Of a stretch of 64,000 nt of DNA, positions 4,089-7,583 are shown in pieces. Position numbers and translations under genes: made by a program. The stretch spans positions 558,001 to 622,000 of the forward strand of contig NZ_CP081958.1 in assembly GCF_019823105.1 (NCBI RefSeq), given 5' to 3'. Position 1 is the stretch's first letter; the number at the start of each line of letters is the position of its first letter. This DNA is from Halobaculum magnesiiphilum (lineage in GTDB: Archaea; Halobacteriota; Halobacteria; Halobacteriales; Haloferacaceae). Below the pieces are notes generated by a model. It was not told where the DNA came from and ran no database searches. It was given only the letters and a program-made list of their open reading frames with translations.

Positions 4089-5108
4089 ATGGCCGTCGGA
4101 GACCAACTCAAGCTCCAGCTCGCCCGCAACGGCCTGCTCATCGCAGCCGTTGTCGCCGTTGTCGGCGCGGCGTCGCTCGCCGGCGCCGGCTACGTGTACC
4201 TGACGCCGCCGACCGAGCAGGTGACCGAGGAGACGAACCGACAGCAAGTGGCGGCCGGCGTCGACACTAGCGCCGTCGTCACCGGCAACGAGACGCTGTA
4301 CGACCGCGGGACGCGTCTCCGGAACATGCCGGTGTACTTCACGTCCGCGAGCCCGGACCTCACGCTCCACGTCGAGGCCTCGGTTCCCGACGACCGGCAG
4401 GTCACCGTCGAGCATCGACTACAGGTCGTCATCAGGGGAACGCGTGCAGATCAAGTGTTCTACGAGAACGCAACCGTGCTCTCGGGCGGACGGGCGACCG
4501 TCTCGGACGGGAACTACGAGCGGAACGCGACGCTGAACGTCTCGCAGTTCAGGTCTGAGGTCGCTACTGTTCAGTCCGCCGCGCCCGTGGGGACGTTCCG
4601 GGTGCTCGTCACGCTGGATGTCTCGTACAACACCACCGACTACACGGGCGAGTTCAACACCAGCGCGCCGCTCGTGATCACTGGCGGCGCCTACTGGGTC
4701 GATGGCGACATCTCGGACAGTAGAACACACAGCAGGACTGTCACCACTCGGGAGGTCGGATCCCCGAACATGAGACTCGTGGGTCTCCTCGCGGTCCTCG
4801 GAGTGGTCCTGCTCGTCGCCGGCGTACTCGTTCGTCGGGCGCCCACGCTGGTCGATGTGACTGCCATCGAGACGCAGGTAGCCCGCGATCGCTACGATGA
4901 GTGGATCTCCAACGGCGAGATCCCGACCAAACGCGAGAAGGAGTACGTTCGGACGGACTCGCTGGAGGACCTCGTCGACATCGCGATCGACTCCAGCAAA
5001 CGAGTGATCCACGACCGCGATCTGGAGGTGTACGCGGTCATCGAGGGCGACCTCGTCTACTTCTTCTCCCCGAACGAGGACGTGGTCGCCGACTGGCTCG
5101 ACGTGTAA
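4089..5108 (+). CDS. DUF5305-like two-span membrane protein
   Basis: A 339-residue protein with an N-terminal membrane helix (residues 12-38) and a second helix (about 233-255). Between them lies an external domain of nearly 200 residues containing PPTEQVTEETNRQ, YTGEFNTSAPLVITGG and many Asn-x-Thr sites. A cytoplasmic tail of about 80 residues follows the second helix. This matches the DUF5305 family as I remember it: extracellular beta domain flanked by helices, often near SipW-type signal peptidases and DUF1102 proteins in haloarchaea. GGAGGG about 12 nt upstream of ATG 4089 is a plausible ribosome binding site. It is the last gene of the surface module. Its function is unknown; pilus or fibre assembly or a membrane anchor is a reasonable guess. 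Confidence 0.8.
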   Translation: MAVGDQLKLQLARNGLLIAAVVAVVGAASLAGAGYVYLTPPTEQVTEETNRQQVAAGVDTSAVVTGNETLYDRGTRLRNMPVYFTSASPDLTLHVEASVPDDRQVTVEHRLQVVIRGTRADQVFYENATVLSGGRATVSDGNYERNATLNVSQFRSEVATVQSAAPVGTFRVLVTLDVSYNTTDYTGEFNTSAPLVITGGAYWVDGDISDSRTHSRTVTTREVGSPNMRLVGLLAVLGVVLLVAGVLVRRAPTLVDVTAIETQVARDRYDEWISNGEIPTKREKEYVRTDSLEDLVDIAIDSSKRVIHDRDLEVYAVIEGDLVYFFSPNEDVVADWLDV

Positions 5109-5283
5109 CCGAATGAAGCCCCGCCGACGAGACCTCCTGTTCGCATCCGGCGACCCAGCTCCGATGCTTCGAACGATGTACGTGTAGCGGTGTCTGGCCG
5201 AATCGGAGGGGAGAGTAGTACATCATAAATATGATAGAAACATTCAATTGTAATTACACATTTAATTGAGGTGGTGTAGGTGT

Positions 5284-5706
5284 GTGTCACAGCGATCCCG
5301 AAATTATCGACGAATACGATTTCGATCGGTCGATCGCCGCAACAGGACGTTTCTCGTATCCGGTCTCACACTCCTCGTCGTCAGCAAGATCGCAGACGTG
5401 GTGACGACAGCTGTGGGGCTACTGTTCATACCGGGAATCACCGAACTCAATCCGATCGCACAGAGTGTGTTTCAGAGTATGGGAACGGTGGTTGGCGTCG
5501 TCGTGTTCGGGTTCACCGTCGTGTTTTGTACAGCCACCGTCGTCGAGTTGGGTGGATGCGAACTGTATCGGCAGACTGGGTCCGAAGCGGCCACAGTGTG
5601 CCTGCGGTTCGGCGCGTATGGAACTCTCTCCATGATCTACTCGTACGCCGCGTATCAGAATGCGGTGCTGATCGCCGACAACGTGTCTATATGGCTGCTG
5701 CTGTGA
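5284..5706 (+). CDS. Small four-helix membrane protein with probable N-terminal frameshift
   Basis: About 140 residues from GTG 5284 (an alternative TTG lies at 5266). From about residue 22 the protein consists of roughly four hydrophobic helices (FLVSGLTLLVVSKIADVVTT, then GVVVFGFTVVFCTATVV and two more) and includes IADVVTTAVGL and ITELNPIAQ. These recall the haloarchaeal DUF5658-type membrane proteins. The first ~20 codons in this frame read as an Arg-rich stretch with poor G/C in third positions. The frame one step away (GTG 5282) reads MCHSDPEIIDEYDFDRSIAA, a typical acidic haloarchaeal N-terminus. A one-base frameshift near 5335-5350 is therefore likely, either a real mutation or a sequencing error. 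The function is unknown. Confidence 0.6.
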   Translation: MSQRSRNYRRIRFRSVDRRNRTFLVSGLTLLVVSKIADVVTTAVGLLFIPGITELNPIAQSVFQSMGTVVGVVVFGFTVVFCTATVVELGGCELYRQTGSEAATVCLRFGAYGTLSMIYSYAAYQNAVLIADNVSIWLLL

Positions 5707-5879
5707 GTTCCGATCGCTTTCAGTCCTGTTGACGGGGCAGTCCAGAGAGCGCTCGCCGGCAGGTACAACGCATTCGCAACGATTACAACGACGATCGACC
5801 GAACCCAGCGCTAGATACTCAAACACATCTCGAGGCGATGATCAATTAGACCGTGCCCACCCACCTTTTCCACTGCGGC

Positions 5880-6070
5880 CGGCTTCGCCGACCCTCGGCA
5901 AAAGCTGGTGAAAAAGCACTCCTCCCTCGTGGTTCGAGAGACGGCGAAGCCGTCTCTCGTCATTACCAGACGCCGGCGGCGTCTGGTCAGCGGCCGGAAC
6001 GCGGAGCGTTCCGGCAGCATCACGAAAGGCGCCTCGCGCCTTTCGAACGACTTCAGGCGGCGGAGCCGCC
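5880..6070. repeat. Array of six perfect hairpins with 3-nt loops
   Basis: The stretch 5707-6183 has no convincing gene. Its middle part is a run of perfect inverted repeats, each with exactly three unpaired bases. Their positions, left arms and loops are: 5880-5890 (CGGC, TTC), 5935-5959 (CGAGAGACGGC, GAA), 5965-5987 (ACCAGACGCC, GGC), 5993-6015 (GCCGGAACGC, GGA), 6023-6045 (CGAAAGGCGC, CTC) and 6056-6070 (GGCGGC, GGA). The four large ones have 10-11 bp stems and total lengths of 23-25 nt. They are separated by only 5-10 nt, while the arm sequences differ from unit to unit. The DNA stays open in more than one frame here, but those readings are Arg-rich artefacts of the palindromes. The flank 5707-5879 shows nothing I can support. 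Confidence 0.85.
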
Positions 6071-6183
6071 ATCCGCTCCGTCGTCGGCCCGTTTGCTCGC
6101 TGCGCTCGCCCGCGGTGGGTTCGCCTGCGATATCGGTAAAATAGACAGCGCTGTGAACCACCTGCTGTTATTGAGTTGCTGAG

Positions 6184-6363
6184 CTATTCATCGGAGATAG
6201 TCGAGACGACCGCGTCGGCACCGCACTCGGGACACAGGTCGTGATCGGCGTGGAATCGCGCGTCACACGTCCGGCACCGGTACTCGGCTTCCTCCTCGGC
6301 CGCCTCCTTCGCGCTCCGCTTGAACTGTTCAACCTGCCGTCCCAACCTGCTGAACAATCCCAT
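6184..6363 (-). CDS. 59-residue zinc-ribbon protein
   Basis: A small minus-strand gene from ATG 6363 to TAG 6184. The protein starts MGLFSRLGRQVEQFKRSAK, has an amphipathic, Glu/Ala-rich N-terminal helix (about residues 8-28), then CRTC at 30-33 and CPEC at 44-47, a four-cysteine zinc ribbon. It ends in a short acidic tail. Haloarchaea encode many such one-domain zinc-finger microproteins, some of which affect motility, biofilm formation or stress responses, but I cannot name an orthologue for this one. It lies 27 nt downstream of a coding remnant on the same strand and next to the hairpin array. Regular codon use and the exact CxxC spacing argue that it is a real gene. Confidence 0.75.
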   Translation of the reverse strand: MGLFSRLGRQVEQFKRSAKEAAEEEAEYRCRTCDARFHADHDLCPECGADAVVSTISDE

Positions 6364-6390
6364 ACTCCATTCGACTGTGGCGACCAGGAT

Positions 6391-6576
6391 TCATAAGCGT
6401 TCGTCGGGGAACCATCGATAGTTCCACAGGATTTCGCTAACACGATCGCCGTCGTGGGAGGAGCCCTCCCACAATTCCTCGACGACGATCGGCGGTTCGT
6501 GAACCGCATTCGCTTCGAGACACGCCGACAGCGGGTCAGGGTCGCGATCGCCGACGATTCCGGGATTGTCGTGTAT
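6391..6576 (-). pseudogene. Startless coding remnant or unrecognised small gene
   Basis: On the minus strand an open frame ends at TGA 6391-6393 and reads about 60 acidic, haloarchaeal-looking residues, including HDNPGIVGDRDPDPLS, VVEELWEGSSHDGDR and LWNYRWFPDERL. Third positions are G/C-rich over this part. No ATG, GTG or TTG is available in a sensible place: upstream of about 6576 the frame continues as a basic sequence into the shikimate kinase region. It is best read as the 3' part of a gene whose start has been lost by deletion or frameshift. The opposite strand is also open here (ending at TGA 6583-6585) but has no good start and a basic product. I do not recognise the family. Confidence 0.35.
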
Positions 6577-6707
6577 ACGACGTGAGCCGAGAGTCGCCGA
6601 TTCCGAACGCCGCCCGACGGCTGACTCCGGACGTCCCTGTTCGCACCCGCGACCGCGATGTTGACACGACCGCCATCCTTTACCCCGACGAACGCGCGCG
6701 TCGATTC

Positions 6708-7583
6708 ATGGAAGGACGCGCCGCCGCGCCGGGCGCCGGAACCGTCGTCAACGCCCTCGCGACGGGTCGCGGCGCCGCGTTCGCGCTGGATCTGGAGACG
6801 ACCGCGACGGTCGAACTCGACCCCGACGCCGAGGGCGTGACCGGCGCAATCGCCGGCGCGCCCGACGGCGACACGACGCTGATCGAGCGGTGCGTCGAGC
6901 GCGTCGTCGACCGCTACGGCGCCGACGAGGGCGGCGCCGTCGAGACCGAAAGCGAGGTGCCGACCGCCGCGGGGCTGAAGAGTTCGAGCGCGGCCGCGAA
7001 CGCGACCGTGGTGGCGACGCTGTCGGCGCTCGGGCTGGACGTCGCGAACGACCCAGACGCCGACGTGACGAAGACGGAGGCGTGCCGCGTCGGCGTGCGC
7101 GCCGCGCGCGACGCCGGCGTCACCGTGACGGGCGCGTTCGACGACGCCTCGGCGTCGATGCTCGGCGGCGTCACCGTCACCGACAACCGCGAGGACGAGC
7201 TCCTCGCCCGCGACGACCCCTTCGCCGAGCACGCGCTCGTGTGGACGCCGCCTCAGCGCGCGTACTCGGCCGACGCGGACACCGCCGCGTGCGAGCGCGT
7301 CGCGCCGATGGCGGAGCTGGCGACCGAGCTGGCGCTCGACGGCGACTGCGCGCGGGCGATGACGGTGAACGGGCTCGCCTTCTCGGCGGCGCTGGGGTTC
7401 CCGACCGACCCCGCGGTCGAGGCGATGACCGACTGCGCCGGCGTCTCGCTGTCGGGGACCGGGCCGAGCGTCGTCGCCGTCGGCGACCGCGAGGCGCTGG
7501 CGGACGTGCGCGAGCGGTGGGACGACCGGGACGGGGAGACGCGGCTGATCCGGACACGCGAGACCGGAGCGCGAGTGCTGTGA
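6708..7583 (+). CDS. aroK: Archaeal (GHMP-type) shikimate kinase
   Basis: A 291-residue enzyme that phosphorylates shikimate at the 3-hydroxyl using ATP. It begins MEGRAAAPGAGTVVNALATG, typical of the archaeal GHMP-superfamily enzyme, which is unrelated to bacterial AroK. The phosphate-binding GHMP motif PTAAGLKSSSAAANA lies at about residues 85-99, and the C-terminal GHMP motif SLSGTGPSVVAVG at about 245-258. A GTG at 6582 would add 42 residues that do not belong to the family, so ATG 6708 is chosen. The stop overlaps a possible GTG start of the chorismate mutase gene by 4 nt, so the two are probably one transcript. It feeds EPSP synthase (19331) and chorismate synthase (24202) in the same window. 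Confidence 0.93.
   Translation: MEGRAAAPGAGTVVNALATGRGAAFALDLETTATVELDPDAEGVTGAIAGAPDGDTTLIERCVERVVDRYGADEGGAVETESEVPTAAGLKSSSAAANATVVATLSALGLDVANDPDADVTKTEACRVGVRAARDAGVTVTGAFDDASASMLGGVTVTDNREDELLARDDPFAEHALVWTPPQRAYSADADTAACERVAPMAELATELALDGDCARAMTVNGLAFSAALGFPTDPAVEAMTDCAGVSLSGTGPSVVAVGDREALADVRERWDDRDGETRLIRTRETGARVL

Follow-up and report, generated by a model that had tools for sequence, protein, structure and literature searches.

A row of perfect hairpins in a 64,000-nt stretch of the Halobaculum magnesiiphilum chromosome (the window, to which all plain coordinates refer) probably consists of two miniature, non-autonomous mobile elements nested in a dispersed repeat, selfish DNA similar to REPINs and PATEs that would be mobilized in trans in the form of single-stranded hairpins. 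The array belongs to a repeat family in which copies are nested, filled and empty alleles differ precisely, the DNA structure is conserved and the loops vary. The single-stranded intermediate, the enzyme acting in trans and the absence of a host function are presumed parts of this explanation, and the polarity of events, insertion as opposed to precise loss, is presumptive as well, being taken from the nesting and not from phylogeny.

Hairpin array in the window

Perfect inverted repeats with stems of 11, 10, 10 and 10 bp and 3-nt loops all lie inside 5935–6045, that is, within 111 nt. On the plus strand, these are hairpin A (5935–5959; CGAGAGACGGC-GAA-GCCGTCTCTCG, 11 bp, loop GAA), hairpin C (5965–5987; ACCAGACGCC-GGC-GGCGTCTGGT, 10 bp, loop GGC), which can alternatively be read as an 11-bp stem with a 1-nt loop, hairpin D (5993–6015; GCCGGAACGC-GGA-GCGTTCCGGC, 10 bp, loop GGA) and hairpin B (6023–6045; CGAAAGGCGC-CTC-GCGCCTTTCG, 10 bp), the loop of which is GAG on the minus strand. 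Two shorter hairpins are part of the surrounding host repeat, namely, hairpin E (6056–6070; GGCGGC-GGA-GCCGCC, 6 bp), which is also present at L002 and in the empty allele L259 (see below), and a weak 4-bp hairpin read from the sequence (5880–5890; CGGC-TTC-GCCG), with the counterpart GGGCCGGC-tcc-GCCGGCCC in L259. The row of perfect hairpins with 3-nt loops reported in the first-pass annotation is thus confirmed, including the 6-bp and 4-bp ones.

Four hairpins in the window combine a 3-nt loop with a stem of 10 bp or longer, every one in the array. Palindromes of 7–8 bp are common in the GC-rich sequence here, and the array could be imagined as a GC-rich intergenic region in which several palindromes happened to come together, but 60 dinucleotide-preserving shuffles of the whole window produced only 0–2 such hairpins each and never 2 within 200 nt, and these units are found again in other members of the order. 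We therefore consider the probability of a chance origin to be negligible, and local composition, put forward at the outset as a potential refutation, fails to account for the cluster. Along 400 kb of this chromosome, only three 3-nt-loop hairpins with stems that long occur, all isolated, so 3-nt-loop hairpins are not generally enriched genome-wide. Single-strand DNA folding of 5865–6125 gives z = -7.5 relative to shuffles.

Rfam searches of 5000–7000 returned no match above the gathering score, PADLOC placed no defense genes next to the array, and the suggested check for a linked transposase-like gene found none. The zinc-ribbon gene adjoining the array has orthologues in four genomes of the genus (L250–L253), with no array beside them.

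Insertion sites and nesting

Comparison of loci indicates that the array is a nest of insertions, with a host repeat receiving the AB element and AB then receiving the CD element, because AB occurs without CD elsewhere and the host repeat is found empty at L259. The outermost level (level 0 of the nest) is a dispersed repeat at 5856–6120, with approximate outer limits (CCCACCCACC...CGCGGTGGGT), that has a second copy in its own genome (L002; 90% over 278 nt). AB (5930–6050, plus strand; TGGTT-A-TCAT/CA-B-AACGA, 64 nt without CD) is inserted in this repeat at ctCG^CTTCagg, as determined by alignment with the empty site L259, where the repeat in another genome of the genus lacks the 121-nt insertion and shows the exact junction ccctCG^CTTCagg. 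CD (5964–6020, plus strand; T-C-CAGCG-D-AGCAT, 57 nt) lies at TCAT^CA, with hairpin A on one side of it and hairpin B on the other, and is flanked by the direct repeat CAT (at least CA). CD copies are flanked by CA, and the flanks of AB show no clear direct repeat or duplication. Five loci in the same genome carry AB without CD (L005, L006, L007, L036, L046), and the site GGCAT^GAACGGG is found both empty of and filled with CD (L006 versus L036). A third element type, EF, is inserted in an AB flank in a further relative (L248).

The entire array is found at one other locus of the genome (C1:1281326; 90–92% identity); one own-genome locus has four hairpins with other stems and the same linkers, and other loci have two hairpins only. 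The element grammar derived from these comparisons is TGGTT-A-TCATCA-B-AACGA for AB and [CA]TY-C-YAGCA-D-RR[CA] for CD. Overall, each element is little other than a pair of short perfect hairpins and spans about 51–64 nt, with stems of about 9–11 bp, 3-nt loops, a linker of 5–6 nt and short conserved ends. The arms of the hairpins indeed differ from each other, as originally noticed, because AB and CD are two different elements, but a separate consensus exists for every position and reappears elsewhere in the genome and in the order; the further statement that the architecture alone is conserved was too strong, given that copies of one element type also share their linkers and outer half-stems.

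Several other arrangements were observed along the way. At L005 (~1374–1720; C1:1996.3–1996.6 kb of the same genome), an AB+CD cluster is flanked by a 57-bp duplication, with two differences, of the 3' end of a putative ornithine carbamoyltransferase gene. CD units stand in tandem, head to tail, at L056, L057, L058 and L079, where neighbors share CAT. A larger dispersed repeat of this genome consists of GGTGGGACTGAAAGGGGC, a variable long stem, a loop region, the stem complement and GGGGGCTTTC (L003, L014, L025, L027, L036, L046); it often precedes a start codon by ~50–200 bp, frequently harbors AB and keeps its own stem paired but variable.

EF is found in the left region of IS200-type elements, with two filled loci (L085, L098) versus six empty ones, and, as a 51-nt in-frame insertion, close to the 3' end of tnpB. 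A search with tnpB junctions recovered filled and empty EF alleles, some with near-identical flanks (for example, L136 versus L153); the flanking matches in tnpB overlap by 2 nt (CG), which gives EF a CG direct repeat at its borders. CD and EF occur in left and right regions of IS605 elements and also elsewhere.

Among tnpB alleles with near-identical flanks, 30 of 42 loop sites differ, compared with 10 of 252 in the stems and 11 of 553 in the flanks; this loop divergence, seen in a handful of alleles, could reflect repeated insertion or fast change in place. Near-perfect stems with loops that differ despite near-identical flanks (tnpB pairs with few independent alleles) would also be expected if replication, through template switching or quasi-palindrome correction, copied one arm to the other while the untemplated loop drifted. 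Acting alone, however, template switching leaves unexplained the linkers and outer half-stems conserved across genera as well as the precise insertion into defined targets and the nesting, and the lack of genome-wide enrichment of 3-nt-loop hairpins also weighs against it. We accordingly regard it as an improbable explanation of the array, although it could operate on top of mobility.

With regard to coding sequences, the tnpB proteins at L087, L089, L090, L091, L095 and L103 carry in-frame peptide tails that double hairpins encode (for example, ...ASVHETASREPTRTSGSGDDD), and these add no stop codon. In two genomes (L073 1501–1562 and L077 1501–1562), a carbonic anhydrase (Pro_CA) gene is cut short by a CD copy; reading this insertion as in-frame was rejected, since the CD copy brings a stop codon. 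L411, from a genome of another family, contains a tnpB gene with rows of 3-nt-loop hairpins on both sides (81–290 and 1910–1955).

Structural conservation and distribution

In an alignment of 74 distinct CD copies, 1459 of the 1480 pair cells (98.6%) are Watson-Crick, and most of the 20 pairs vary by two-sided, compensatory change; because the copies are related, these counts do not represent independent events. The non-Watson-Crick cells comprise 8 G-T/T-G and 7 A-C/C-A. The strong predicted folding and the compensatory changes would fit hairpins that act as RNA (a non-coding RNA, a terminator, or a processing or stability element) and spread only secondarily. Selection on RNA would favor G-U, however, and G-T cells are no commoner than A-C cells, which argues for conservation of the structure at the level of DNA rather than RNA. 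An RNA function is also at odds with the near-equal numbers of GNA loops and their complements, indicating that neither strand is preferred, with the occurrence of copies within coding regions and within other mobile DNA, and with the absence of an Rfam match. The structured-RNA option raised in the first-pass annotation is thus disfavored, and we assign it little credence. The option of REP-like mobile DNA, in contrast, is well supported by the dispersed copies, the nesting, the precise empty sites and the selection on structure, so that the initial interpretation as a whole is partly supported.

The loops are the hypervariable part of CD, whereas a C-G pair closes the loop of hairpin C in 72 of 74 copies and that of hairpin D in 73 of 74. 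GNA or TNC accounts for 90 of the 148 loops in the CD copies, with an even split between strands (GAA 25 versus TTC 22; GGA 15 versus TCC 18), compared with only 3 of 41 background 3-nt-loop hairpins from the same-chromosome list. GNA loops on G-C stems form extraordinarily stable DNA mini-hairpins (PMC4686876). The columns at the feet of the hairpins are YAGCA, CATY and RRCA in CD, and TGGTT, TCATCA and AACGA in AB.

The array is not unique to this genome, and the proposed search of other haloarchaea found relatives in most of those covered. The covariance model for CD (R1) identified the element in 121 of the 148 family genomes, representing 27 of 28 genera, and the model for AB (R2) did so in 112 of 148 genomes, likewise from 27 of 28 genera (E <= 1e-6); per-genome match counts are maximum values, since a palindromic unit is also hit on its opposite strand. 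Across 295 sampled genomes of the phylum, R1 (E <= 1e-6) identified 31 genomes with matches, all in the same order, and no CD match outside it. A DNA pattern for the C half, with the inner three bases left free, was found, among the matches listed, in Halorubrum, Halolamina, Halobellus, Haloplanus, other haloarchaea and a few bacteria; among these listed matches, complete pairing of the free inner bases is seen in 71 of 78 haloarchaeal cases and in 0 of 4 bacterial ones. The four listed bacterial matches were rejected as relatives, given that their inner triplet is not fully paired and no hairpin follows. Viral contigs yielded no exact match to the C-half pattern.

Related elements and possible mobilization

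Judging by published descriptions, the haloarchaeal elements would work like PATEs and SMRs, REPINs and the mitochondrial double hairpins. The bacterial REP/REPIN elements with their RAYT (TnpA-REP) enzymes (PMC3116915, PMC8266576) are, similarly, tiny paired-hairpin units composed of inverted half-elements, dispersed and sometimes in tandem, for which single-stranded DNA mobility has been inferred; in one REP, a 3-nt loop caps a perfect stem of 8 bp (PMC8266576). AB and CD each combine two inverted palindromic half-elements in one dispersed unit, but GTAG (or CGTC) at the hairpin foot is absent in both, and no association with Y1_Tnp was detected in an analysis that pooled RAYTs with IS200/IS605 TnpA. 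Unlike REP/REPINs, the present elements have archaeal hosts, inner stems that vary by compensatory change, and loops that are free and flip strand, whereas loop reversal in a Stenotrophomonas REP impairs binding and cleavage (PMC8266576). Allomyces double-hairpin elements and the repetitive hairpin-forming elements of sponge mtDNA also consist of two adjacent hairpins as a mobile unit and insert into genes and spacers, with conserved stems and differing loops (cited in PMC2800124). A mobile unit of two stem-loops is found here as well, recognized by its architecture and by filled and empty sites; the mitochondrial setting aside, the archaeal elements differ in that the loop length is fixed at 3 nt, the closing pair is almost always C-G and the targets are short and defined.

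The closest setting is that of Haloquadratum walsbyi (PMC3119063), where PATEs are numerous and transposase-free, with near-terminal palindromes and a 52-bp terminal-only form, and where SMR-A and SMR-B are very short, transposase-free and located in IS605-type elements and other mobile DNA, SMR-A inserting into palindromes close to the termini of IS605-type elements or PATEs (PMC3119063). The elements described here might therefore be A- or B-type SMRs or minimal PATEs, perhaps disabling IS605-type transposons. Their haloarchaeal hosts, the insertion of EF and CD into IS605-type elements and other repeats, the SMR size of 80–110 bp with enigmatic mobilization and the 52-bp form of one PATE (PMC3119063) are all compatible with such an assignment. 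PATEs, however, are linked to IS605 elements through palindromes that they share with the ends of these elements, and no such IS parent was found here: 60 Y1/TnpB loci with 1.5-kb flanks contain invading double hairpins and no matching single hairpins at both ends. PATEs lack both a transposase and a target duplication; here too there is no gene, but direct repeats CG and CA flank EF and CD, respectively, and none flanks AB. By their published description, SMRs are ~80–110 bp long, with inverted terminal repeats and commonly >95% identity within a type, as opposed to two separate hairpins in 51–64 nt with variable stems, and the specific features of SMR-A (~110 bp, commonly >95% identity within a type, inverted terminal repeats) are not seen here. 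In addition, AB and CD also lie inside non-IS repeats, and many tnpB genes with EF stay open. We consider this assignment a real possibility, although somewhat less likely than not.

Under the preferred explanation, two nested elements mobilized in trans, AB would have inserted into the host repeat first and CD later between A and B. When a strand is exposed, for example, the lagging strand, both hairpins would fold, and a putative single-strand transposase or recombinase supplied in trans would recognize the two together. The element would then be excised or copied and joined at a short target; CD apparently joins after CA, EF after CG and AB at CG^CTTC (two host repeats compared). The enzyme would most plausibly be HUH/Y1-like, as for REPINs and IS200/IS605; the TnpA-REP-like class is favored because such enzymes recognize hairpin REPs and cut at CT or CA dinucleotides (PMC8266576).

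The presence of Y1_Tnp is not associated with the presence of CD (Fisher p = 0.25) and not clearly associated with CD copy number (Spearman 0.14, p = 0.09), and Y1 hits are lacking altogether in six genomes that contain 15 or more CD matches; a Y1 transposase as the local driver was rejected for lack of association. Hairpins near Y1 genes, considered as IS ends, proved instead to have inserted into IS200/IS605 elements. The loci examined include no autonomous hairpin-gene-hairpin element, and inspection by eye revealed no consistent rule for IS608-like guide pairing between linker and target. It is also conceivable, although unlikely, that these elements form a haloarchaea-wide class of mobile DNA recognized by hairpin shape and not by sequence, through pairing, C-G closing and GNA-type DNA loops, with the loop and inner stem rewritten during mobilization, for instance, by opening and refilling of the loop, and with an enzyme outside the known Y1 families.

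Although elements of this kind are already known from bacteria and Haloquadratum, the haloarchaea-wide family appears to be undescribed. No description of it was found in the open literature, and the matches listed for the literal element sequence in published papers include nothing relevant. The elements represent a compact, testable case of DNA selected in vivo for hairpin shape, variable in sequence yet almost perfectly paired, with a loop bias toward the motif that gives the most stable DNA mini-hairpins. As nested mobile DNA, they account for a class of odd palindrome arrays found in haloarchaea; they also reveal tnpB genes with in-frame element insertions and raise the question of which enzyme moves double-hairpin elements.
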